From Azoarcus olearius (GTDB lineage: Bacteria > Pseudomonadota > Gammaproteobacteria > Burkholderiales > Rhodocyclaceae): a stretch of DNA of 64,000 nucleotides. The notes under the pieces were generated by a model that did not search any database, had not been told where the DNA came from, and saw nothing but the letters and a program-made list of their open reading frames with translations. The position numbers and the translations under genes are program-made. The stretch lies in the NCBI RefSeq assembly GCF_001682385.1, contig NZ_CP016210.1:1550001-1614000 (forward strand), written 5' to 3'. Below are positions 1-10,644 of this stretch, one piece after another (the stretch's first letter is position 1; the number at the start of each line of letters is the position of its first letter).

Positions 1-797
1 TCGCGGGCGTAATGAGGGAGCAGGTATGCAAGTACATGTGCCCTTACGCCCGTTTTCAGAGCGTCATGTTCGACGCCGACACGCTCGTCATCACATACGA
101 CGAAGAGCGTGGCGAGCCGCGCGGAACCCGCAAGAAGGGCGTGGATCCTAAGTCGGTCGGGAAAGGTGACTGTATCGATTGCGGAATCTGTGTACAGGTG
201 TGCCCCACCGGGATCGACATCCGGAAGGGGCTCCAGTATGAGTGCATAGGGTGTGCCGCCTGTATCGACGCCTGCGATCAGGTGATGGAGAAGATGAGCT
301 ATCCCAAGGGGCTCATCCGATATTCGACCGAGAATGCGGTCAAGAAACACTGGGGAAGCAAGGAGATCATTGGCCACGTGCTGCGGCCGCGTACGCTGAT
401 ATACGGCGGCGTGCTGGCCTTGGTCAGTTTGGCGTTTCTGTGGGGGTTGGCGACGCGCGAACCGCTGCGTGTCGATGTGCTGCGTGATCGGACGTCTCTA
501 GCTCGTGAGGTTGAAGACGGAATGATCGAAAACGTTTATCGCCTGCAGGTGATGAACATGACAGAATCGGCGAGAAGCTTCCACTTCGGTGTCGAAGGTT
601 TGGACCAGGCCCGGATCGGCTCCGCGGAGACTTCCATCTCCGTTCCGCCGGCGTCGACCCAATCCGTGACGCTTCGGGTATTGGTGCCGGGTGGGGTAGG
701 CAAGTCTGGCGCAAACGAGCTGTTCATCGTGGTGGCGCCTGATGATGCGCCGCAGGAACGATTGCGGGAAAAGACCACTTTCCTTATGCCGAATTGA
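1..797 (+). CDS. ccoG: Cytochrome c oxidase accessory protein CcoG (3' part)
   Basis: This is the C-terminal part of CcoG (FixG/RdxA), a membrane iron-sulfur protein involved in assembly of cbb3-type cytochrome oxidase. The reading frame is open from the first complete codon (position 3), so the N-terminal membrane domain lies outside the window. Visible are two ferredoxin-like [4Fe-4S] clusters of cysteines (CIDCGICVQVCP and CIGCAACIDACD), then a transmembrane helix (LIYGGVLALVSLAFLWGL) and a C-terminal Ig-like periplasmic domain. The stop lies 4 bases before the next gene, ccoH, so the two are surely co-transcribed. The ccoNOQP structural genes are expected upstream, but this cannot be seen. 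Confidence 0.95.
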   Translation, partial: AGVMREQVCKYMCPYARFQSVMFDADTLVITYDEERGEPRGTRKKGVDPKSVGKGDCIDCGICVQVCPTGIDIRKGLQYECIGCAACIDACDQVMEKMSYPKGLIRYSTENAVKKHWGSKEIIGHVLRPRTLIYGGVLALVSLAFLWGLATREPLRVDVLRDRTSLAREVEDGMIENVYRLQVMNMTESARSFHFGVEGLDQARIGSAETSISVPPASTQSVTLRVLVPGGVGKSGANELFIVVAPDDAPQERLREKTTFLMPN

Positions 798-801
798 TTC
801 G

Positions 802-1317
802 ATGAGCTTTAGTGTGACCCAGAAGAAAGCTGCACCCTGGTACCGACAAGGTTGGCCGTGGTTCCTGATTGCGATTCCGGCGACTGCTATTGTCGCTGGC
901 GTGATTACGCTGATCCTCGCGATCAGGAGTTGGGACGGCCTGGTCGTGGATGACTATTACCGAGAAGGGAAGGCGTTCGTCCAGACTATCGAACGGACCG
1001 AGCGGGCCAAACAACTCGGGTTGTCCGCGCAACTGAACATCAGTACGGACCGGGTGTTGATCGTGTTGTCGTCGTCGGTGCCCAGTGTCACGCTTCCCGG
1101 TACTGTTCGCTTGACGGTATCGCATCCGACCAAGGGTGGCCTGGATCAGGAGATGGTGGTGACGGGGCGAGACGGGGTGTTTGAAGTCAAGATCAGCCCG
1201 CTCGCAACCGGTCGCTGGTTGTTCCAAATAGAAGACGAGCCCCGCGCCTGGCGAATGAACGGGGCCGCTTACCTCCCGACAGAGACGGAGATCCGGATCA
1301 ATCCGACCGGATCATGA
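802..1317 (+). CDS. ccoH: FixH/CcoH family cbb3 oxidase assembly protein
   Basis: The 171-residue protein has one N-terminal transmembrane helix (about residues 16-38) followed by a periplasmic beta-rich domain. The sequence after the helix, VVDDYYREGKAF, is the signature of the FixH family. CcoH is needed for stable assembly of the cbb3 oxidase. The ATG at 802 was chosen because it gives the normal FixH N terminus and begins 4 bases after the ccoG stop; the upstream in-frame ATGs at 742 and 745 lie inside ccoG. The usual partners ccoI and ccoS do not follow. Confidence 0.9.
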   Translation: MSFSVTQKKAAPWYRQGWPWFLIAIPATAIVAGVITLILAIRSWDGLVVDDYYREGKAFVQTIERTERAKQLGLSAQLNISTDRVLIVLSSSVPSVTLPGTVRLTVSHPTKGGLDQEMVVTGRDGVFEVKISPLATGRWLFQIEDEPRAWRMNGAAYLPTETEIRINPTGS

Positions 1318-1342
1318 ACTGCGTCTTGAAAGGAGAGTCGTC

Positions 1343-1492
1343 ATGGCTTGGAGAGAGTTATTCGGTAGCGACATCGGTTTGCTCAGCCTCTTCACGATCG
1401 GTTTCGTCCTGGTGATGGGCGTCTACATCTACCGGTTTGCTGTTCGCCACATGGCGGAGGATGAGCAAAAAGCCAAGTTGCGGCATCAGTGA
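1343..1492 (+). CDS. Small DUF3149-type membrane protein
   Basis: This 49-residue reading frame starts MAWRELFGSD and has one hydrophobic helix (about residues 12-31) followed by a charged tail rich in Lys, Glu and Asp. It resembles the DUF3149 family of single-helix proteins found beside cbb3 oxidase genes in betaproteobacteria. A strong Shine-Dalgarno (AAAGGAGAG) lies just upstream. It sits 25 bases after ccoH and 30 before the next small gene, so it probably belongs to the oxidase operon. Its role is unknown; an assembly or stability factor is a guess from context. Confidence 0.75.
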   Translation: MAWRELFGSDIGLLSLFTIGFVLVMGVYIYRFAVRHMAEDEQKAKLRHQ

Positions 1493-1522
1493 TTATTCGA
1501 TGGCGGTAATAAGGAGGTTGAG

Positions 1523-1759
1523 ATGCTCAAGTGGATTCAAGTGCTGTGGCCCTCGTTCCTCGTCGCGGCTCTCGCCGAGGCCGCCTTTTTTACCGTCATC
1601 GACCCTCAGGAACTCTACTTCCAAGGGGAGGCGGTGCATTTTTCGCCGATCTCGACATATTCGATAGGGTTCATCGGATTCTGGTTGATATGCGCCGCTT
1701 CAAGTCTGACAACCCTGTTCTTTCAGCGAACCTCGGACGAGGTTAATCAACGAGACTGA
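1523..1759 (+). CDS. Small two-helix membrane protein, conserved-looking
   Basis: The 78-residue protein has two hydrophobic segments (about residues 5-25 and 45-66) separated by a short polar loop, which suggests two membrane helices. A near-perfect Shine-Dalgarno (AAGGAGGT) lies about 6 bases before the ATG. It is the last gene of the ccoG-ccoH unit and is followed directly by a strong terminator. I do not recognise a named family. Context suggests a link with the respiratory oxidase, but no residue shows this directly. Confidence 0.7.
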   Translation: MLKWIQVLWPSFLVAALAEAAFFTVIDPQELYFQGEAVHFSPISTYSIGFIGFWLICAASSLTTLFFQRTSDEVNQRD

Positions 1760-1772
1760 AAGCGTAGAAAAC

Positions 1773-1801
1773 AAAAAAGCCACTCTGAGAGTGGCTTTTT
1801 T
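1773..1801. terminator. Bidirectional rho-independent terminator
   Basis: A 7-bp stem (GCCACTC/GAGTGGC) with a 3-base loop is flanked by an A run on one side and a T run on the other. It can therefore end the ccoG-ccoH unit on the plus strand and the tRNA-Arg transcript on the minus strand, whose gene ends 8 bases away. Confidence 0.9.
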
Positions 1802-1808
1802 GTTTATT

Positions 1809-1885
1809 TGGCGCGCCCGGAAGGATTCGAACCTCCTACCCCCTGGTTCGTAGCCAGGTACTCTATCCAGATGAGCTACGGGCGC
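1809..1885 (-). tRNA. tRNA-Arg (anticodon ACG)
   Basis: The minus strand folds into a 77-base cloverleaf. The acceptor stem is GCGCCCG/CGGGCGC, the anticodon stem is CCTGG/CCAGG with loop CTACGAA, and the T arm carries GGTTCGAATCC. The encoded 3' CCA is present. Anticodon ACG (read as ICG) gives arginine for CGU/CGC/CGA codons. No integrase or attachment-site duplication is visible next to it. Confidence 0.95.
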
Positions 1886-1897
1886 TGAAAGATTTGA

Positions 1898-1926
1898 ACT
1901 ATAGCACTAACTGTTTAACTTGGGAA
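1898..1926 (-). promoter_or_regulatory. Probable promoter of tRNA-Arg
   Basis: On the minus strand a -10 TATAGT ends 12 bases upstream of the tRNA 5' end, with a weak -35 TTCCCA at 17-bp spacing. The -10 and its position are convincing; the -35 matches only 4 of 6 consensus bases. Confidence 0.45.
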
Positions 1927-2020
1927 GGTTTTTCTTCCGTCGTTTTTTGCTGCGCTTGTGTTCGAACAACGGAGCGCATAATAGACAATATCCTGATGGA
2001 TGGCAAGAAAAATTTTGCCG

Positions 2021-2464
2021 TTAGCGATAGACGAGGACTGGAATCGTACTGTGGGTGAGGACCTTCTGGGTTTCGCTACCCAGAAGCAGGCTGGCAAGGC
2101 CCCGTCGTCCGTGGGACGCCATGAATATGAGGTCGCATCCGTGCCGGTCCGCCGCATTGATAATCGCCTCGTACGGCACCTCGTTTACCAATGTGTCAGT
2201 GTCTGCCAGTACGCCGGAAGCGTCGGCAACGGCTTTGGCGGCGTTCAGGATGCGTTCGGCTTCTTGAGCTGCCGCTTTGGCAAACTGTTCGGGGGTCGTC
2301 GGGTCGATCAGGGCGCCTTCGCCGTAGATCGGCATCGGGAAGTCCGGTTGAGCGTAGAAGAACGTGATGCGGGCCGAGGCGTCGCGTGCGAAGGATACCG
2401 CCCGAGCCACCGTACTCTCCGACAAGGCTGACCCGTCCGTCGGTACCAGAATGTGCTTGAACAT
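2021..2464 (-). CDS. Universal stress protein (UspA family)
   Basis: This is a single-domain, 147-residue universal stress protein of the cytoplasm. The N terminus MFKHILVPTDGS and the C-terminal stretch MASHGRRGLASLLLGS followed by HSTIPVLVYR are the family's nucleotide-binding elements (compare the G-2X-G-9X-G-S ATP motif, in which the first Gly is Ala here). A good Shine-Dalgarno (GGGAGGTG) precedes the ATG. It is transcribed divergently from phaC. Such proteins are often induced under oxygen limitation or stationary phase, which would suit the neighbouring cco, fnr and phaC genes, but I found no FNR box upstream. Confidence 0.92.
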   Translation of the reverse strand: MFKHILVPTDGSALSESTVARAVSFARDASARITFFYAQPDFPMPIYGEGALIDPTTPEQFAKAAAQEAERILNAAKAVADASGVLADTDTLVNEVPYEAIINAADRHGCDLIFMASHGRRGLASLLLGSETQKVLTHSTIPVLVYR

Positions 2465-2686
2465 TGCGCACCTCCCTTGGTTGATGCGTTTATTTTCAAT
2501 ACCCGACCCGATTATAGCTCCCGGCGGGAGTGGGTCTGGATGATGAAGGTCAACGTGGAGGCCGGGAAGGGAGGGGATGATCTGCGTGGGAACCTCCGCG
2601 TACCGTGGGAGTCATCACCGACGATGTTGGTTGGGCTGCCGTGGCAAAATGGAAAAGCCCCTGTCATTTCGAAGCTTGGAGACGTG

Positions 2687-4420
2687 ATGAACAAGAGCGA
2701 GCGACTCGACCCAGGTCAAACCGTAAAGCGTTCGATCAAGCAACTGCACGAAGCGGTCGAGGGGTCCTTCGATCCGCTCGGGATGGCGGCGCCTATCATT
2801 CACGCCCAGCTGGCTTGGGCTGCGCATCCGCAGGAGCTGGCAGATCGTCTTCTGCGTCTTTCCTCCGACCTGTGGCGTCTGCAATGGCATTCCTGGAACC
2901 GGGTTCTCGGCCTCGACAGCGAAGATCCGGTGCGGCCGAATCCGGACGATGCGCGTTTTGCCGATCCGGTCTGGACTGAGTCGCCGACCTGGGATCTCAC
3001 CAAAGAGTGGTATCTGGCGCTGACTCACCACGTCCAGGACATGCTCTATGACACGCCGGGTCTGACGGGGAAGGAGCGGCGGCGGGCGGCGTTCTGGTGG
3101 CGGAAATGGCTGAATGCGGTCGCGCCGACCAATTTCTTCTGGACGAATCCGGTCGCAGTGCGAAAGGCGTGGGAAACGAAGGGTGAGAGCCTGGTCCGCG
3201 GGTTCGGCAATTTCCTCGACGACGTTCGCGCGGGTGAAGTGCGGATGACTCGTCCCGATGACTTCGAGGTGGGCAAGAACCTGGCGACGACGCCCGGCGC
3301 GGTCGTGTTCAGGAACGACCTCTTGGAGGTGATTCATTACCAACCCACTCGTCCGCAAGTGCACCGCGATCCGGTCGTCATCGTCACTCCGTGGATCAAC
3401 AAGTTCTACATCCTCGATCTCGTTCCGAAGAAGAGCCTGATTCGTTACCTGCTCGAACAGGGACTGGACGTATTCATTACAAGCTGGAAGAACCCTGACG
3501 CCTCGATGCGGGATGTGACGTTCGACGACTACGTCACACGCGGGGTGCACGCCGCGGTAGAGACGGCGCGAGGGCTCGCAGGCGCCGAGAAGGTGCATGC
3601 GGTGGGGTACTGCATCGGTGGCACTGCCCTCAGCATGTACATGGCGTGGGCCAATCGCCACTTTCCGGCCGAAGCGGTTCCGGTGGCAGACTGGACCGTC
3701 TTTACCACGCTCGTCGATTTTCAGAAGCCGGGCGACATCGAGGTGTTCATCGACGAGTCGAGCATCCGCTACCTGACCGGAAACATGGCCCGAACCGGTT
3801 ATCTGGAAGGCAAGGAGATGGCATCCGCTTTCCGCCTGCTGCGTTCGAACAGTCTCATATGGCACTACGTAGTCCACGGCTGGCTGTATGGCGAAACACC
3901 GGCCTCGTTCGACGTGCTGTACTGGAACATGGACGCGACGCGGATGCCCTATGCGATGCACTCCTGGTATCTCAGGGAGCTGTATCTGCACAACAGGTTG
4001 ATTCAGAAGGACGCGCTGGTGGTGGCAGGCGAACCGCTCGACCTCGCTGCGATCTCGCAACCGCTGTACGCCGTCGCGGCGGAGGATGATCACATCGCTC
4101 CGTGGGGGCAGACCTTCCGCATCAATAATTTTGTAACCGGCCCAAAGCGCTACGTGCTATCGAGTTCGGGGCACATCCTCGGCATCGTCAACCCGGTCGT
4201 TCAGCCGCCCAAGCGAAACTATCGCGCAGCCGAAGCGCATCGCTCGGAATCGGCTGAGGCATGGTTGGACCGGGCCGAACGCCACGAGGGGAGTTGGTGG
4301 GAGGACTGGATGCAGTGGTTGAAGCCGCGGGCGGGCGAACTGGTCGACGCGCGACCGGTCGCCAATGCTGCCTTTCCGGCTTTGGCGCCGGCGCCAGGAA
4401 CCTACGTGCTGGAAAAATAG
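2687..4420 (+). CDS. phaC: Class I poly(3-hydroxyalkanoate) synthase PhaC
   Basis: PhaC polymerises (R)-3-hydroxyacyl-CoA into polyhydroxyalkanoate at the granule surface. The alpha/beta-hydrolase core has the lipase-like box GYCIGG with nucleophile Cys309, Asp468 in the DDHIAPW motif and His496 in SSGHILG. The spacing matches the Ralstonia eutropha triad. The ATG at 2687 was chosen because a GGAG lies about 6 bases upstream and the resulting 577 residues fit class I synthases; the frame is open back to 2453, but that would overlap the divergent stress gene. No phaA, phaB or phasin gene is next to it, so it stands alone here. It converges with fnr. Confidence 0.93.
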   Translation: MNKSERLDPGQTVKRSIKQLHEAVEGSFDPLGMAAPIIHAQLAWAAHPQELADRLLRLSSDLWRLQWHSWNRVLGLDSEDPVRPNPDDARFADPVWTESPTWDLTKEWYLALTHHVQDMLYDTPGLTGKERRRAAFWWRKWLNAVAPTNFFWTNPVAVRKAWETKGESLVRGFGNFLDDVRAGEVRMTRPDDFEVGKNLATTPGAVVFRNDLLEVIHYQPTRPQVHRDPVVIVTPWINKFYILDLVPKKSLIRYLLEQGLDVFITSWKNPDASMRDVTFDDYVTRGVHAAVETARGLAGAEKVHAVGYCIGGTALSMYMAWANRHFPAEAVPVADWTVFTTLVDFQKPGDIEVFIDESSIRYLTGNMARTGYLEGKEMASAFRLLRSNSLIWHYVVHGWLYGETPASFDVLYWNMDATRMPYAMHSWYLRELYLHNRLIQKDALVVAGEPLDLAAISQPLYAVAAEDDHIAPWGQTFRINNFVTGPKRYVLSSSGHILGIVNPVVQPPKRNYRAAEAHRSESAEAWLDRAERHEGSWWEDWMQWLKPRAGELVDARPVANAAFPALAPAPGTYVLEK

Positions 4421-4442
4421 CGGTGAAGTGGGGCGGGAGGAA

Positions 4443-5180
4443 CTAGCGACACGCAGGTTGGTGTTGTATCAGCTTCTTCAGGCCCCCGCTGTCGAGAATC
4501 CGGATGTGCTTCTGCTGCACCGTGACTAGGCCTTCCTCCTGGAAGCGGGAGAACGCGCGGGAGACGGTTTCGAGCTTCAGCCCCAGGTAGGAGCCGATCT
4601 CCTCCCGCGTCATGCGCAGGTGAAACTCCGCCGCAGAAAAACCGCGTGCGGTGAAGCGCTGGGACATGTTCAGCAAGAATGCAGCCAGCCTTTCCTCGGC
4701 GCGCATGGAGCCGAGAAGCATCATCACGCCGTGGTCGCGAACGATCTCACGACTCATCACCTTGTGAAACTGATGCTGCAGGCCTTCGACCTCGCGCGAC
4801 AGTTCTTCCAGCTTGCCGTAGGCAATGACGCAGACTTCGCTGTCCTCCAGCGCAATCGCGTTGCAGGAATGAACCTCGCTGCTGATGCCGTCCAGGCCGA
4901 GGATCTCGCCGGTCATCTGGAAGCCGGTGACCTGGTCCCGCCCATCCTCGAGGAGGACGTCGGTCTTGAATGAGCCCGTGCGGATCGCGTAGATTGCTTC
5001 GAAAGGGTCGCCGGCCCGGTACAGGTGCTGCTGACGCTTGATCTTGCGGCGCGCACCTACCAGCTCGTCGAGACGGTCGATTTCATTTTCGCTCATCCCG
5101 AAGGGAAGGCAGAGTTCGACGAGATTGCACTGCGAACACGCCGTCTTCAGTCCGGCAACCGTAATCGGCACCGCCTTCAT
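4443..5180 (-). CDS. fnr: FNR-type oxygen-sensing transcription regulator
   Basis: A 245-residue Crp/FNR family regulator. The four cysteines that hold the oxygen-labile [4Fe-4S] cluster in E. coli FNR are all present with matching spacing: Cys15, Cys18 and Cys24 (CSQCNLVELC) and Cys117 (SEVCVI). A cyclic-nucleotide-binding fold follows, then a C-terminal helix-turn-helix whose recognition helix contains ETVSRAFSRF, the FNR E-SR pattern that reads TTGAT half-sites. The ATG at 5180 was chosen because it gives the usual short N terminus; the frame is open further upstream into hemN leader DNA. It is divergent from hemN, and a shared FNR box suggests autoregulation. Confidence 0.95.
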   Translation of the reverse strand: MKAVPITVAGLKTACSQCNLVELCLPFGMSENEIDRLDELVGARRKIKRQQHLYRAGDPFEAIYAIRTGSFKTDVLLEDGRDQVTGFQMTGEILGLDGISSEVHSCNAIALEDSEVCVIAYGKLEELSREVEGLQHQFHKVMSREIVRDHGVMMLLGSMRAEERLAAFLLNMSQRFTARGFSAAEFHLRMTREEIGSYLGLKLETVSRAFSRFQEEGLVTVQQKHIRILDSGGLKKLIQHQPACR

Positions 5181-5223
5181 TTGCACGATAAACTTGCTCC
5201 GAATCCGCAGGAGATTGGCCGCG

Positions 5224-5237
5224 TTGATCCATGTCAA
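5224..5237. promoter_or_regulatory. FNR box between fnr and hemN
   Basis: TTGATCCATGTCAA matches the FNR consensus TTGAT-N4-ATCAA at 9 of 10 positions. Its centre lies about 50 bases from the fnr ATG and 61 from the hemN ATG, so it could act on either gene or both. HemN is FNR/ANR-controlled in several proteobacteria, and fnr is often autoregulated. Confidence 0.8.
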
Positions 5238-5291
5238 CCACATCGAGCCGGCTTTCTGCGATCGTTTGGTACGCCCAGCAACAGCACACCC

Positions 5292-6683
5292 ATGAACGCC
5301 CAGCCAGATCTCATCTTCGATCCGCAACTCATCCGTCGCTTCGATGTGAACGGTCCCCGTTACACATCGTACCCCACGGCAGACCGATTCGTTGAGGCAT
5401 TCGACGCCAACGCATTGCAGGATTGGCTTGCCAAGCGCGCCGTCGGCGGGGTGAGTCGGCCGCTGTCATTATACTTCCACATCCCGTTCTGCAATACGAT
5501 CTGCTACTACTGCGCCTGCAACAAGATCATCACCAAGGATCATGGGCGCTCTGCCAAGTATCTGAAATACCTTGAGAAAGAGATCGAGATGCAGGTTGCT
5601 GCGCTCGGAGGAAGCCGGCAGGTCACGCAGCTTCACCTTGGCGGCGGAACGCCCACCTTCCTGTCGCACGAGGAAATGCATCAGCTGATGGACGCGGTGC
5701 GGCGCTTCTTCAACCTGGCCCCGAACGGCGAGTATTCGATCGAGGTCGATCCGCGCAAGGTCGATTTCGATACGGTGGAAATGCTCGCCAATCTCGGTTT
5801 CAACCGGATGAGCGTCGGAGTGCAGGATTTCTCCGATGATGTGCAGCGCGCGGTGAACCGCGTGCAGAGCGTCGAAGAGACCCGGTTGGTGATCGACGCG
5901 GCGCGCGCCACCGGCTTCAAGTCGGTCAGCCTCGATCTGATCTACGGCCTGCCCAAGCAAAACGTCATCAGCTTCAATCGCACGCTGGAGCAGGTCCTCG
6001 ACATTTCGCCGGACCGCATCTCCCTCTACAGCTACGCGCACTTGCCCGGATTGTTCAAACCGCAGCGCCGCATCCTGCAAAGCGACATGCCGACGCCGGA
6101 AGCCAAGCTGCAGATTCTGCAACTGGCGATTCGCCGCCTCACCGAAGCCGGTTACGTGTACATCGGCATGGATCATTTCGCCAAGCCGGACGACGAACTG
6201 ACGGTGGCCCAGCGGCAAGGGCGTCTGCACCGCAACTTCCAGGGCTACTCCACGCAGGCCGAATGCGATCTGCTGGCGTTCGGTGTCTCGGCGATCGGCA
6301 AGGTTGGCGCGGCTTACGCGCAGAACGTGAAGACGCTCGACGAATACTACGACGCGCTCGATCGCGACCAGTTGCCGGTGCTGCGCGGCGTGGAGCTGAC
6401 CGCCGACGATCTGTTGCGGCGTTCGGTAATCCAGGCCCTGATGTGCCACTTCGAGTTGTCGATGCAGTCGATCGAGATCGCCCACCTCATCGACTTCCGC
6501 GACTACTTTGCGGCTGAACTCGCCGACCTTGCGGAAATGCAGGCTGCGGGCCTTCTGGAGATCGACGGTGACTGGATTACCGTGCTCCCCGCCGGCCGGA
6601 TGCTGGTCCGCGGTATCGCAATGGTGTTCGACCGCTATCTACGCGCCGACCGTGAGCGGGCACGCTACTCGAAGGTGATCTGA
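5292..6683 (+). CDS. hemN: Oxygen-independent coproporphyrinogen III oxidase HemN
   Basis: HemN is a radical-SAM enzyme that converts coproporphyrinogen III to protoporphyrinogen IX in haem synthesis without oxygen. The 463-residue protein has the extended motif FCNTICYYCAC, with Cys67, Cys71 and Cys74 for the [4Fe-4S] cluster and the extra Cys76 seen in true HemN, plus LHLGGGTPTFL for SAM binding. The length is close to E. coli HemN (457), which supports a real enzyme rather than the shorter HemW. The ATG at 5292 gives the standard N terminus (NGPRYTSYPTADRF). An FNR box lies about 55 bases upstream, consistent with induction under low oxygen. Confidence 0.95.
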   Translation: MNAQPDLIFDPQLIRRFDVNGPRYTSYPTADRFVEAFDANALQDWLAKRAVGGVSRPLSLYFHIPFCNTICYYCACNKIITKDHGRSAKYLKYLEKEIEMQVAALGGSRQVTQLHLGGGTPTFLSHEEMHQLMDAVRRFFNLAPNGEYSIEVDPRKVDFDTVEMLANLGFNRMSVGVQDFSDDVQRAVNRVQSVEETRLVIDAARATGFKSVSLDLIYGLPKQNVISFNRTLEQVLDISPDRISLYSYAHLPGLFKPQRRILQSDMPTPEAKLQILQLAIRRLTEAGYVYIGMDHFAKPDDELTVAQRQGRLHRNFQGYSTQAECDLLAFGVSAIGKVGAAYAQNVKTLDEYYDALDRDQLPVLRGVELTADDLLRRSVIQALMCHFELSMQSIEIAHLIDFRDYFAAELADLAEMQAAGLLEIDGDWITVLPAGRMLVRGIAMVFDRYLRADRERARYSKVI

Positions 6684-6770
6684 GCTTCTGGTGGGTGAAG
6701 CGGGGGCGTAAGATGCAGGGTTTCCATCTTCGGCAGTGCCGTCCCGGCAACGCGGCGGTCCGTGTCCAGC

Positions 6771-7487
6771 ATGCCTGAGTCCGGCTATCTCGCCGTCTTC
6801 CTGATCGGCCTTCTCGGCGGTACCCACTGCGTCAGCATGTGTGGCGGAATCGTCGGCGCGCTCAGCGTCCAGAAGATGCAGGGTCCGCACGACGCCGCCC
6901 GGCAGTGGCCCCTGCATCTCGCCTACAACCTCGGCCGTATCGGCACCTATACCGGGATGGGGGCGCTGCTCGGCGCACTCGGTTCGGTCGGAATGATCTA
7001 CAGCGGCGTGCTGCCGGCACAGATGGCGCTTTATGTGCTTGCGAACCTGATGCTCGTTGCACTGGGGCTCTATCTCACCGGATTCACTTCCGTACTCGCG
7101 CCGGTGGAGCGTGCGGGGCACGCCGTGTGGCGCAGGGTGCAGCCGCTTACCCGGCGCTTCCTCCCCGCACGCTCGGTGAGTCAGGCGCTTCCGCTGGGGG
7201 CCTTGTGGGGCTTTCTGCCTTGCGGTCTGGTGTACAGCGTCTTGACCACCGCTTTGGTGACGGGCTCCGCGGCGCGTGGCGCCGGCATCATGCTCGCGTT
7301 TGGCCTGGGAACGTTGCCCAACCTGTTGCTTGCAGGAATGCTGTTCAAGCGTTTTCGTGACATTACCCGCAACGGAAAGGTGCGCTTCGTGGCGGGTCTG
7401 GCCGTGTTGGGCTTCGGTGTGTTCGGCCTGTTCCACGCGCAGTCGCTGGGCGGCGCGCTCTGGAGCGGTGTGGTCTGCGCCGTGTAA
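6771..7487 (+). CDS. UreH/TauE-SafE-like membrane protein
   Basis: A polytopic inner-membrane protein of about 238 residues with roughly six hydrophobic segments. The N-terminal LIGLLGGTHCVSMCGGIVGAL, with its HC..MCGG motif, is characteristic of the UreH-like branch of the sulfite exporter TauE/SafE superfamily (COG2836). These genes commonly lie beside cbb3 oxidase, fnr/hemN and copper ATPase genes and are suspected of a metal or oxidase-assembly role; the substrate is not known. The start could also be the GTG at 6762, three codons earlier; neither has a clear ribosome binding site. It converges with the MerR-family gene. Confidence 0.8.
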   Translation: MPESGYLAVFLIGLLGGTHCVSMCGGIVGALSVQKMQGPHDAARQWPLHLAYNLGRIGTYTGMGALLGALGSVGMIYSGVLPAQMALYVLANLMLVALGLYLTGFTSVLAPVERAGHAVWRRVQPLTRRFLPARSVSQALPLGALWGFLPCGLVYSVLTTALVTGSAARGAGIMLAFGLGTLPNLLLAGMLFKRFRDITRNGKVRFVAGLAVLGFGVFGLFHAQSLGGALWSGVVCAV

Positions 7488-7501: not shown

Positions 7502-7897
7502 CTACTTTCCCGCCAGCGACTTGAGAATGGGGCAGGGCGCCGGTGCCTCGGTGTCCCGGCAGCACTTCACCAAGGCACGTAGCGCGCCGCGCATCTCCTC
7601 CAGTTGGCGGATACGCACCTCGATATCGTCGATCTTCCCCTGCGCAATCCGGCGCGCCTTCTCGCGGTCGCGTTCTTCGTTCAATCCCAGTAACTCGTCG
7701 ATTTCCTCGAGCGAGAAGCCGAGCTGTTGCGCGCGGCGGATCGCCTTCAATCGTTCGAGGTCGTCCTCCTGATACGCCCGGTAGCTGCCCCGGCGTTCGG
7801 GTTCCGCCAGCAGTCCCCTGCGGTGGTAGTAGCGGATCGTCTCGACCCCGACCTCGGCCTGCGCGGCAAGCTGCCCTATCGTGTAAGTGTGGTCCAT
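7502..7897 (-). CDS. MerR-family metal-responsive regulator
   Basis: A 131-residue MerR-family activator with an N-terminal winged helix-turn-helix ([20 protein letters not shown]), a long dimerisation helix and a C-terminal metal loop [15 protein letters not shown]. Aligned by eye to Tn501 MerR, Cys117 and Cys126 are kept with the MerR spacing of eight residues, but Cys82 is replaced by arginine; CueR-type proteins have Ser at the comparable site. The ATG at 7897 was chosen over a frame extended by 14 residues because it begins the HTH in the usual place. It is divergent from copA, with a MerR-type operator between them. It probably senses copper or another soft metal; the specificity is uncertain. 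Confidence 0.85.
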
Positions 7898-7903
7898 GCG
7901 CTG

Positions 7904-7935
7904 TTGACTCCGTACCTTGGTACGGGCTTTACACT
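7904..7935 (+). promoter_or_regulatory. MerR-type promoter-operator of copA
   Basis: A -35 TTGACT and a -10 TACACT are separated by an over-long 20-bp spacer, the hallmark of MerR-controlled promoters. The spacer contains the perfect dyad CCGTACC-TT-GGTACGG (7910-7925). The half-site CCGTAC is that of mercury-resistance mer operators rather than the CCTTCC-like half-site of E. coli CueR. The copA ATG lies 40 bases downstream. Confidence 0.85.
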
Positions 7936-7974: not shown

Positions 7975-10410
7975 ATGGCGGATGCGGTGCTGGATCAGAG
8001 GCGGCCCGAGGACAGCGCGTTGCACGTTGTGGATCTGCCGGTGGCGGGCATGACCTGCGCCGCCTGCGCGACGCGCATCGAAAAGGTGCTGAACCGGATG
8101 GACGGCGTCAGCGCCAGCGTGAACCTGGCGGCGGAAAAGGCGCACGTGCGCCTGGACGGCGCGCGCATTGGCGCCGGCGAGGTGGTGGCTGCGATCCGCA
8201 AGGCCGGGTTCGAGGTGCCGGACGCCAGCCTCGAACTCGAAATCTCCGGCATGACTTGCGTTGCGTGCGCGCAGCGCCTGGAGAAGGTGCTCGGCCGCCT
8301 TCCCGGCGTTTCAGCGGCGGTCAATTTCGCCACCGAGCGCGCGACGGTGCGTTATACCCCGGGGCTGTCGAACGCCGATGCGATCAAGGCGGCAGTCGTT
8401 CGGGCAGGTTTCGAGGTCGCGGAGACCGGACCGGCGCAGCGCGAGCAGATACGTGCCCGCCAGCAGGCGCAGTGGCGCCACGAGCGCATCCGGTTCTGGA
8501 TCGCCGCCGCGCTGACCCTCCCGCTGGCGGCGCAAATGCCGGCGATGTTCGGCTGGATCGGCGAGGCCGGCATCCACGACGTGATTCCGCGCGGCTTTCA
8601 GTTGCTGCTCGCGACCCCGGTCCAGTTCTGGATCGGCGCGCGGTTCTACCGCGGGGCGTGGTCGGCGTTGCGCGGGCGAAGCGCAAACATGGACGTGCTG
8701 GTGGCGCTCGGTACCAGCATGGCCTACTTCTACAGCCTGGTGGTGACGGCGCTAGGGCGTCACGACCTCCACGTGTACTTCGAAGCCTCCACGATGATCA
8801 TCACCCTGGTGCTGCTCGGAAAGCTGCTGGAGGCGCGTGCGAAGGCCAGGACCACGGCGGCGCTGGACGCCTTGGTGCGGTTGCAGCCCCGTATGGCGAG
8901 GGTGGAGCGGGGCGGGATGATTGTTGAGGTGCCGGTCGAACGGCTGCAGCCGGGTGACACCTTCCTGGTCCGGCCGGGCGACGCGGTGCCGGTCGATGGC
9001 GTCGTCGAGAGCGGCGCCTCCGCGGTGAACGAATCCATGCTGACCGGCGAAAGCCTGCCGATCGACAAGGCGGGTGGCGACAAGGTCTATGCGGCCACGG
9101 TGAACGGCGAGGGCGTGCTCCGCTGCCGGGCAACCGGTGTGGGAGGCAGCACCTTGCTCGCGGGGATCATCCGGCTGGTCGAGCAGGCGCAGGGGTCGAA
9201 AGCGCCCGTGCAGCGCCGCGCGGACCAGGTTTCGGCGATCTTCGTCCCCGTGGTGGTCACGCTGGCGGTCGCCACCTTTGCCGGCTGGTGGCTGGTGGCC
9301 GGCGACTTCCAGCAGGCACTGGTCAACGCGGTGGCGGTGCTGGTCATCGCCTGTCCATGCGCGCTCGGGCTGGCTACGCCGACCGCCATCATGGTGGCGA
9401 CCGGACAGGGCGCGCGCGCCGGCATGCTGGTGAAGAATGCCGCGGCGCTCGAACTCGCCGAGCAGATCGCGGTGCTGGCGCTGGACAAGACGGGCACACT
9501 GACCGAGGGACGTCCGGCCGTCACCGAGGTCCGGCCCGGCGCGGGGGTAAGCCGCAGCGAACTGCTGCGGCTCGCCGCCGCCGTTGAGCAGGCGAGTGCC
9601 CACCCGGTGGCCTTGGCGGTGGTCGAGGCGGCGCGCGCCGAGGGCTGTGTGTTGCCCCCTGCGAGCGAACTGCAGGCGGTGAGCGGTAAGGGGATGGAGG
9701 GCGTGGTGGAGGGGCGCAAGCTGCGGGTCGGATCACCCGACTTCCTGGCTGAGGCGGGCGTCGCGGTGGCCGAAGCCGACGTTGCAGCCCTTGCTGCCGG
9801 CGCCAATACGCTGGTGGCGATTGCGGGGGATGGCCATTGGCTCGGCGTCATCGGCGTGGCAGATCCGCTGCGGGGCGATTCCGCCGATGCAGTGCGGCGT
9901 TTGCGCGCCAAGGGCGTACGTGTGCTGATGCTGACCGGCGATCATCCCGCCACGGCGGCGGCCATCGCGGGGCGGGTCGGCATCGACGAATGGCAGGCGG
10001 GGGTGCTGCCCGCGGGCAAGGCGGAAGCGGTGTCCTCGCTAGTCGCGGAGCGGAGCGGAAAGGCGCGGGTCGGCATGGCGGGCGATGGCATCAACGACGC
10101 GCCCGCCTTGGCGGCAGCGGATGTGTCGTTTGCGATCGGGGTGGGAGCGGACGTGGCCGTCGAGGCCGCCGACATCACGCTGGTGCGCAATTCCCTGCAC
10201 GGTGTTGCCGATGCGATCGACCTCTCTCGTGCAACCCTGTCCAAGATCAGGCAGAACCTGTTCTTTGCGTTCATCTACAACGTGCTCGGCATTCCGCTTG
10301 CGGCTGCCGGCATGCTCAACCCCGTGGTGGCGGGCGCCGCGATGGCAATGAGTTCGGTGTCGGTGGTGACCAACTCGCTGTTGCTGCGACGCTGGAAGCC
10401 CGGGCGCTGA
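7975..10410 (+). CDS. copA: Copper-translocating P1B-type ATPase CopA
   Basis: CopA pumps Cu(I), and often Ag(I), out of the cytoplasm using ATP. The 811-residue protein has two N-terminal heavy-metal-binding domains (GMTCAAC and GMTCVAC), eight predicted membrane helices, the transport-site Cys460-Pro-Cys462 (ACPCALG), the phosphorylation motif DKTGT with Asp504, and the hinge motif [10 protein letters not shown]. Two metal-binding domains favour the efflux type over the one-domain CcoI/FixI that loads cbb3 oxidase. The ATG at 7975 has AGGGG upstream. It is driven by the MerR-type promoter and followed 24 bases later by copZ. Confidence 0.95.
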
Positions 10411-10434: not shown

Positions 10435-10644
10435 ATGGAAGAAGTGACGCTGAAAGTCGAAGGGATGAGCTGCGGTGGCTGTGTGCGCAACGTCACCGGT
10501 GTATTGAAGGCGCTGCCGGGGGTCAGTGAAGCGGATGTATCGCTTGACGCGGCGCAGGCGCGGGTCCGGTTCGATCCGGCGCGGGTGAGCGTGGCCGAAT
10601 TGCGTCAGGCCGTGGAGGGCGCGGGCTTCGATTCCCCCGCCTGA
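10435..10644 (+). CDS. copZ: CopZ-like copper chaperone (HMA domain)
   Basis: A 69-residue, single-domain HMA protein with the metal-binding loop GMSCGGC and the family's beta-alpha-beta-beta-alpha-beta pattern. It would carry Cu(I) to CopA in the cytoplasm. It has a good Shine-Dalgarno (AAGGAG) and lies 24 bases after copA, clearly in the same operon. The gene ends 14 bases before the stop of the convergent GGDEF-EAL gene. Confidence 0.92.
   Translation: MEEVTLKVEGMSCGGCVRNVTGVLKALPGVSEADVSLDAAQARVRFDPARVSVAELRQAVEGAGFDSPA

Follow-up and report, generated by a model that had tools for sequence, protein, structure and literature searches.

Hg(II) is bound in Tn501 MerR via Cys82, Cys117, and Cys126 (PMC5027573, in excerpt). 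Proteobacterial MerR sites have the form TCCGTAC-4-GTACGGA and lie in 19-bp promoter spacers, whereas CueR/HmrR sites are of the ACCTTCC type, also with a 19-bp spacer; in addition, mercury loci of a mixed type exist, which carry a 7-4-7 dyad in a 20-bp spacer (PMC1526738, in excerpt). Selectivity between +1 and +2 ions is described as being set mainly by a residue from the other protomer, which is Ser in CueR and Cys in the divalent sensors (PMC9909328, in excerpt). The protein side of DNA recognition has also been examined in a protein–DNA correlation study, where, with the residue-number mapping made in our analysis, E goes with MerR-type bases and K with CueR-type bases; that study treated separate MerR branches with two site matrices (PMC5045206, in excerpt).

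Here we analyzed a 64,000-nucleotide stretch of the Azoarcus olearius genome (the window, C1:1550001-1614000), in which a copA gene is transcribed divergently from a MerR-like regulator. The regulator shares with Tn501 MerR (TIGR02051) its lineage, an E-T recognition pair, CCGTAC half-sites with a 4-bp center, the divergent gene order, the Cys117/Cys126 pair with its X8 gap, and a 28-residue segment corresponding to residues 66 to 93. It differs from Tn501 MerR in having Arg (His in some relatives) in place of Cys82, in falling below the TIGR02051 cut-off, in a promoter spacer of 20 bp rather than 19 bp, and in its target, copA-copZ, with no mer motif flagged adjoining. With CueR/HmrR (TIGR02044), it has in common a Cu-type P1B ATPase target, two loop cysteines, and a third-ligand position that is not Cys. 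However, CueR/HmrR regulators have the different site type and spacer given above, Ser at the third position (25 of 25 rows), the recognition pair K-M, R-M, or K-A, a 30-residue segment, and, in this family, a gene placed co-directionally behind an ATPase gene (22 of 24 loci) instead of divergent from it. CadR, PbrR, and ZntR are likewise MerR-type metalloregulators of P-type ATPases but have Cys at the third position (10 of 12 rows), a segment of 30 to 31 residues, and a place on other branches of the tree. Finally, the mixed-type loci share the operator architecture (7-4-7 in a 20-bp spacer), but those loci are mercury operons.

The literature searched, which comprised titles, the beginnings of abstracts, and passages including PMC6769254 and PMC10028694 (many subscription papers being outside its reach), contains no description of such a clade and no characterized member with Arg or His at the Cys82 position. 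The survey of PMC1526738, as excerpted, names no copper branch with mer-type sites, and several of its tree branches are without known specificity. We thus regard the novelty of the Arg/His copA regulator clade as provisional.

The copA promoter and its divergent regulator

The features of the locus, in window coordinates, are as follows.

5292..6683, plus strand: hemN, oxygen-independent coproporphyrinogen III oxidase (context).
6762..7487, plus strand: gene for a PF13386 (DsbD_2) membrane protein, convergent with the regulator gene (Pfam, run on the window).
7502..7897, minus strand: putative MerR-lineage metalloregulator, 131 aa, with R78 at the MerR Cys82 position and with C113, C122, and an additional C112.
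7904..7909, plus strand: −35 element TTGACT of the copA promoter (from sequence; the 20-bp spacer form recurs in 24 of 24 loci).
7910..7925, plus strand: mer-type operator dyad CCGTAC-CTTG-GTACGG within the 20-bp spacer (pattern search and conservation).
7930..7935, plus strand: −10 element TACACT, 20 bp from the −35 element (from sequence).
7975..10410, plus strand: copA, the divergent target, encoding an 811-aa P1B ATPase of the Cu type that contains two HMA domains.
10435..10644, plus strand: CopZ-like HMA protein, 69 aa, separated from copA by 24 bases (scores under the curated CopZ cut-offs).

The original prediction held that the copA promoter combines TTGACT, a 20-bp spacer, and the CCGTAC half-sites of mercury-resistance operators, in place of CueR half-sites. 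Indeed, the spacer (7910 to 7929, CCGTACCTTGGTACGGGCTT) opens with the dyad CCGTACCTTGGTACGG (7910 to 7925), an exact fit to CCGTAC-N4-GTACGG, and the best CueR-type match at the window locus has 4 mismatches. What did not stand is the view of 20 bp as a mer-like spacer, as the canonical length is 19 bp (PMC1526738, in excerpt). Six bases separate the start codon of the regulator, the ATG at 7897, from TTGACT of the divergent promoter. A promoter scan restricted to spacers of 16 to 18 nt found no promoter. The pattern CCGTACN{4,9}GTACGG occurs once in the window, compared with a mean of 0.01 in shuffled sequence (1 of 100 shuffles had one occurrence). A genome-wide search for further CCGTAC dyads, which had been proposed together with the prediction, located CCGTACN{3,5}GTACGG at a single place in the single-contig, 4.45-Mb genome, the copA promoter. 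Because a control pattern, the same pattern read backwards, gave 4 matches per strand in this genome, the genome-wide rarity of the dyad is in itself no proof, and the case for a real operator rests on its place and its conservation. A chance dyad is rejected by the window shuffles together with conservation across loci; the genome-wide count alone would not suffice.

Among NCBIfam models, the regulator is ranked first by TIGR02051 (proteobacterial MerR) with 123.8 bits, ahead of ZntR (105.4 bits) and TIGR02044 (CueR, 100.3 bits), and reaches no curated cut-off (150.85 bits for TIGR02051 and 147.4 bits for TIGR02044). The closest solved structure by sequence is Tn501 MerR (5crl). In the alignment to 5crl, C113 and C122 occupy the places of Cys117 and Cys126, with the X8 gap kept, and Cys82, the third Hg ligand, corresponds to R78, which leaves the three-Cys ligand set incomplete and bears out the predicted retention of two cysteines at their spacing with Arg in place of the third. 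The CueR-type Ser is absent as well, so that R78 is neither the Ser of CueR nor the Cys of the divalent sensors in the scheme of PMC9909328.

The copA product scores 580 bits against TIGR01511 (cut-off 397 bits), and the motifs CPC, N(x)6YN(x)4P, and M(x)2SS, which are marks of Cu-type P1B ATPases, were seen by eye. Thus, of the claim that the target has all CopA features and a CopZ partner, the first part is right (TIGR01511, two HMA domains, and motifs), while the small HMA protein is CopZ-like but lies under the curated cut-offs.

The region upstream of the copA cassette (L265, G000:C1:1536000-1551000, and window positions 1 to 7487) contains a cbb3 oxidase cluster with ccoN, ccoO, ccoP, ccoG, and a second Cu-type ATPase that is ccoI-like by its place. 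Between this cluster and the regulator gene lie a phaC-like gene (just below its cut-off), a gene for an Fnr-type regulator, hemN, and the PF13386 gene. Another Cu-type ATPase over the TIGR01511 cut-off is located elsewhere in the genome (G000:C1:3327361-3329172). HemN is a reported copper target in Rubrivivax, in which the copA regulator CopR has C112, C120, and S77 (PMC11591864, in excerpt).

Conservation and lineage of the regulator

We searched 150 genomes of the same family, including that of the window. The clade as defined here comprises the window locus and L010-L032, all of which were read; weaker matches were read in part, so the clade is present in at least 24 of the 150 genomes. 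Sequence identity for L010-L032 is 48 to 73%. At position 78, 18 of the 24 clade regulators have R, 6 have H, and none has C, and the equivalents of C113 and C122 are invariant in all 30 rows of a wider Arg/His clade. In each of the 24 loci the regulator gene diverges from an ATPase gene, 23 of them CopA-like with HMA motifs and one (L032) of a YHS/CPMHPEI type, across a promoter with a 20-bp spacer. Against TTGACTCCGTAC-N4-GTACGG, 13 loci show 0 mismatches, 7 show 1, 3 show 2, and L032 shows 4, so that 23 of 24 have a mer-type site within 2 mismatches. Moreover, in 22 of the 24 clade genomes no place besides the copA promoter matches with ≤1 mismatch. Next to the regulator gene, 20 of 24 loci also have a convergent ORF with an HCxxMCG motif. 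Completeness is ≥90% for 22 of the 24 genomes. The 23 CopA proteins from the clade loci group together in a single clade (support 100/99), indicating that regulator and copA look like one inherited cassette, and repeated in-place regulator swaps at one copA are rejected on the same grounds. The L032 regulator falls in a second tree branch.

Two trees, each from a short alignment (140 to 144 columns), were used to place the regulator relative to MerR, CueR, PbrR, CadR, and ZntR. Tree 1 has 113 rows picked by hand (109 of 182 extracted proteins plus four typed references) and includes 12 of the 24 CueR proteins; for tree 2 (119 rows), six long or duplicate rows were dropped and the other 12 CueR proteins were added. 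In tree 1, an 80-row set with support of 100/97 includes all clade members, the 21 rows labeled MerR, and Tn501 MerR and contains no CueR, CadR, PbrR, or ZntR; Bacillus MerR and a merR-annotated plasmid gene (L137) lie outside it. In tree 2, the wider Arg/His clade (30 rows, 99/96) and CueR (25 rows, 100/95) are separate clades. Neither tree places the regulator deep inside the CueR clade, the position named in advance as contrary to the prediction. Cys82 may have been lost once or twice, a single clade not being rejected (p 0.385).

Residue-level features divide the proteins in the same manner. Segment 66 to 93 has 28 residues in 24 of 24 clade members, 36 of 36 rows labeled MerR, and Tn501 MerR, compared with 30 residues in 24 of 24 CueR proteins, E. 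coli CueR, 9 of 9 rows from the CadR/ZntR searches, PbrR691, CadR, and Bacillus MerR, and 31 residues in E. coli ZntR and SoxR. At the recognition positions, 24 of 24 clade members have E-T (E19-T20 in the window regulator), as do 33 of 36 MerR rows, whereas CueR has K-M in 23 of 24, R-M in one, and K-A in the E. coli protein; these pairs fit the correlation reported in the excerpted PMC5045206. All 24 members score higher against the MerR model (118 to 134 bits) than against the CueR model (85 to 110 bits), and all are below the TIGR02051 cut-off. The third-ligand position is Ser in all 25 CueR rows. The loop gap is X8 in 23 of the 30 wider-clade rows (X7 in 5 and X5 in 2), compared with X7 in 25 of 25 CueR rows.

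These data bear on a first alternative, that the regulator is an ordinary copper regulator, namely a diverged CueR ortholog in which the DNA-binding domain came by drift to recognize a mer-like site. Its target class is that of CueR, position 82 is basic in both groups (R in 28 of 30 wider-clade rows; K in 22, R in 2, and H in 1 of 25 CueR rows), and Approximately Unbiased (AU) tests that forced the clade and CueR together did not reject the grouping (p 0.086 and p 0.118). The protein is short, so the tests leave room for a CueR grouping, though the trees never place the clade inside CueR. However, the model scores, the separate clades, the segment length, and the loop gap all run against such an ortholog, and we consider it unlikely; a simple CueR identity is rejected by the first three of these, although the AU tests do not reject the grouping. 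R82 was also considered as a special mark of the clade and rejected, as Arg is found in 16 of 37 MerR rows too. The favored placement from sequence is thus within the proteobacterial MerR lineage and outside the CueR clade, with the AU results as given. Together, the trees, the 28-residue segment, E19-T20, the Cu-type targets in 24 of 24 loci, and the site in 23 of 24 support the predicted MerR-lineage regulator that was retuned while its old DNA site was kept, and the targets and site residues suggest copper as the new specificity.

CueR over the TIGR02044 cut-off is encoded in 24 of the 150 genomes, and this set and the 24 clade genomes have no member in common (hypergeometric P 0.010, with no kinship correction). 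Two genera have both kinds in different species, g48 (G048 and G139 versus G103) and g57 (G057 and G143 versus G108). For 20 of the 24 CueR genomes, we examined the stretch upstream of copA, with one shuffle each as control (4 to 6 mismatches). A CCTTCC-N7-GGAAGG-type site was present with 0 to 3 mismatches in 20 of 20, and a mer-type dyad in 0 of 20, the mer-type matches having 6 to 7 mismatches. Conversely, the best CueR-type matches in the 24 clade loci have 3 to 6 mismatches. At L109, a CueR locus, a single CCGTAC or GTACGG lies close to cueR. In some members of this bacterial family, the clade regulator most likely serves as the alternative to CueR.

Relatives beyond the family and the predicted metal response

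Among six plasmid loci examined, L132-L134 and L136 have wider-clade regulators without Cys that diverge from a glutaredoxin-type gene. Pfam identified a glutaredoxin–MauE fusion in both loci tested, L133 and L136. Copper genes are annotated near the L133, L134, and L136 regulators; L132 came without annotation. L132, L133, L134, and L136 are alphaproteobacterial plasmid loci; these and L089 all pair a MerR-lineage regulator lacking Cys82 with a divergent glutaredoxin-type gene, the MauE fusion outside L133 and L136 being assigned by likeness. In a second group (L032, L041, L043, L047, and L065) the partner ATPases bear YHS and CPMHPEI motifs. L042 also encodes an Arg/Lys-type regulator divergent from a YHS/CPMHPEI ATPase, yet it lies outside the second branch formed by the other five. 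A related-locus search of genome contigs yielded one distant locus.

We then compared partners among 107 distinct proteins with a MerR-lineage segment length (27 to 28 residues). A Cu/Ag ATPase or glutaredoxin–MauE partner was flagged for 31 of 37 non-Cys regulators and for 0 of 70 Cys regulators, a count that is descriptive as the rows share ancestry. Of the 70 Cys regulators, 27 have mer motifs and 43 have nothing flagged. The non-Cys rows without a flagged partner are L018, L041, L043, L060, L006, and L155. On direct reading, ATPase genes are present at L018, L041, and L043 and none was seen at L060; L006, admitted by the selection on segment length, is probably no metalloregulator.

The regulator is most likely a MerR-derived activator of copA-copZ that responds to Cu(I)/Ag(I)-type ions, the metal being read from the target and the binding residues. 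It would act as a homodimeric MerR-type activator/repressor that occupies the mer-type dyad of the copA promoter, where the 20-bp spacer is overlong, and keeps this promoter off. Cytoplasmic Cu(I), and probably also Ag(I) or Au(I), would be bound in two-coordinate fashion by C113 and C122, and the metal-bound dimer would then distort the spacer, turning copA-copZ on. The change of Cys82 to Arg78 (His in one sub-branch) is predicted to abolish the trigonal Hg(II) site, and Arg78 or His, like Ser77 in CueR, may bias the site to monovalent ions. A basic residue at this position may help to neutralize the bis-thiolate charge, and His in the one branch could itself act as a ligand.

A broader sensor of soft metals (Ag, Au, and several ions) or thiol stress, for which CopA would export soft metals in general, would be in keeping with CueR, which itself answers Cu, Ag, and Au (PMC1526738, in excerpt), and with the YHS/CPMHPEI-type ATPases and glutaredoxin–MauE fusions that partner the relatives. 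However, 23 of the 24 targets are CopA proteins of one clade (100/99), and a CopZ-like gene follows copA at the window locus, which makes this broader role very unlikely.

The shared operator and mercury operons

MerR over the curated cut-off is encoded in 27 of the 150 genomes, the count being 10 for the 24 CueR genomes and 2 for the 24 clade genomes (Fisher p 0.017, with no kinship correction); set against all 150 genomes, the clade count is not unusual (P 0.14). Fewer mer regulators in clade genomes might possibly reflect the reading of one site by both regulators, which we note as a lead. MerA and MerT motifs were searched for within ∼1.5 kb on each side of the 24 clade regulators, and none was flagged. 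The least probable of the readings weighed here is that the protein is still a mercury or divalent-metal sensor and that Hg(II) induces copA via the two remaining cysteines: the operator and lineage are MerR-type, bis-thiolate sites bind Hg(II) with high affinity, and CueR binds it in vitro (PMC6899792, in excerpt), but Cys82 is missing in 24 of 24 members, a C82Y substitution in MerR was reported to affect dimerization and Hg affinity badly (PMC5027573, in excerpt), the clade regulators have no flagged mer neighbors, and MerR is encoded in few clade genomes, a count that is not unusual by itself.

A Cu(I)/Ag(I)-type activator of MerR descent would fit a wider reading, which we offer as possible rather than probable. 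This reading is that Cu(I) sensing evolved for a second time among MerR-family proteins, within the lineage of mercury sensors, when Arg or His took the place of Cys82 and the mer operator was retained; that the resulting regulator acts in place of CueR in some members of one family and is inherited with copA as a cassette; and that the shared operator brings it into conflict with mobile mer operons. If so, it would show how a switch from mercury to copper sensing can come about through substitution at a single known selectivity position, where Arg or His would serve as Ser does in CueR, with the DNA code unchanged. A mer-type operator or a MerR-like name is then no sure sign of mercury, a caution that bears on annotation and on metal biosensors.

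Two metal circuits that share one operator would be a testable case, and G044 carries both kinds. In addition to its copA operator, G044 has three more mer-type operators whose half-sites are identical or almost identical (the four at C1:1348383, 1872110, 1881550, and 3464721), two of which adjoin MerR genes over the cut-off, making it a natural case for crosstalk. In G064, the one listed site adjoins its MerR gene.

Among 399 genomes of the order, the 20-bp mer-type promoter was found at 19 sites in 18 genomes (≤2 mismatches). A MerR-like protein was obtained from 13 of the 19 loci, and at least 7 of the 19 sites, which come from other families, lie beside Cys82 regulators, some with merT-like genes; the targets at these sites, assigned from the middle of the locus and by eye, are rough. 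A copper-specific operator is rejected on the basis of these Cys82 neighbors. At L242 and L249, the MerR-like frames beside 20-bp mer-type promoters seem to be without large internal parts.
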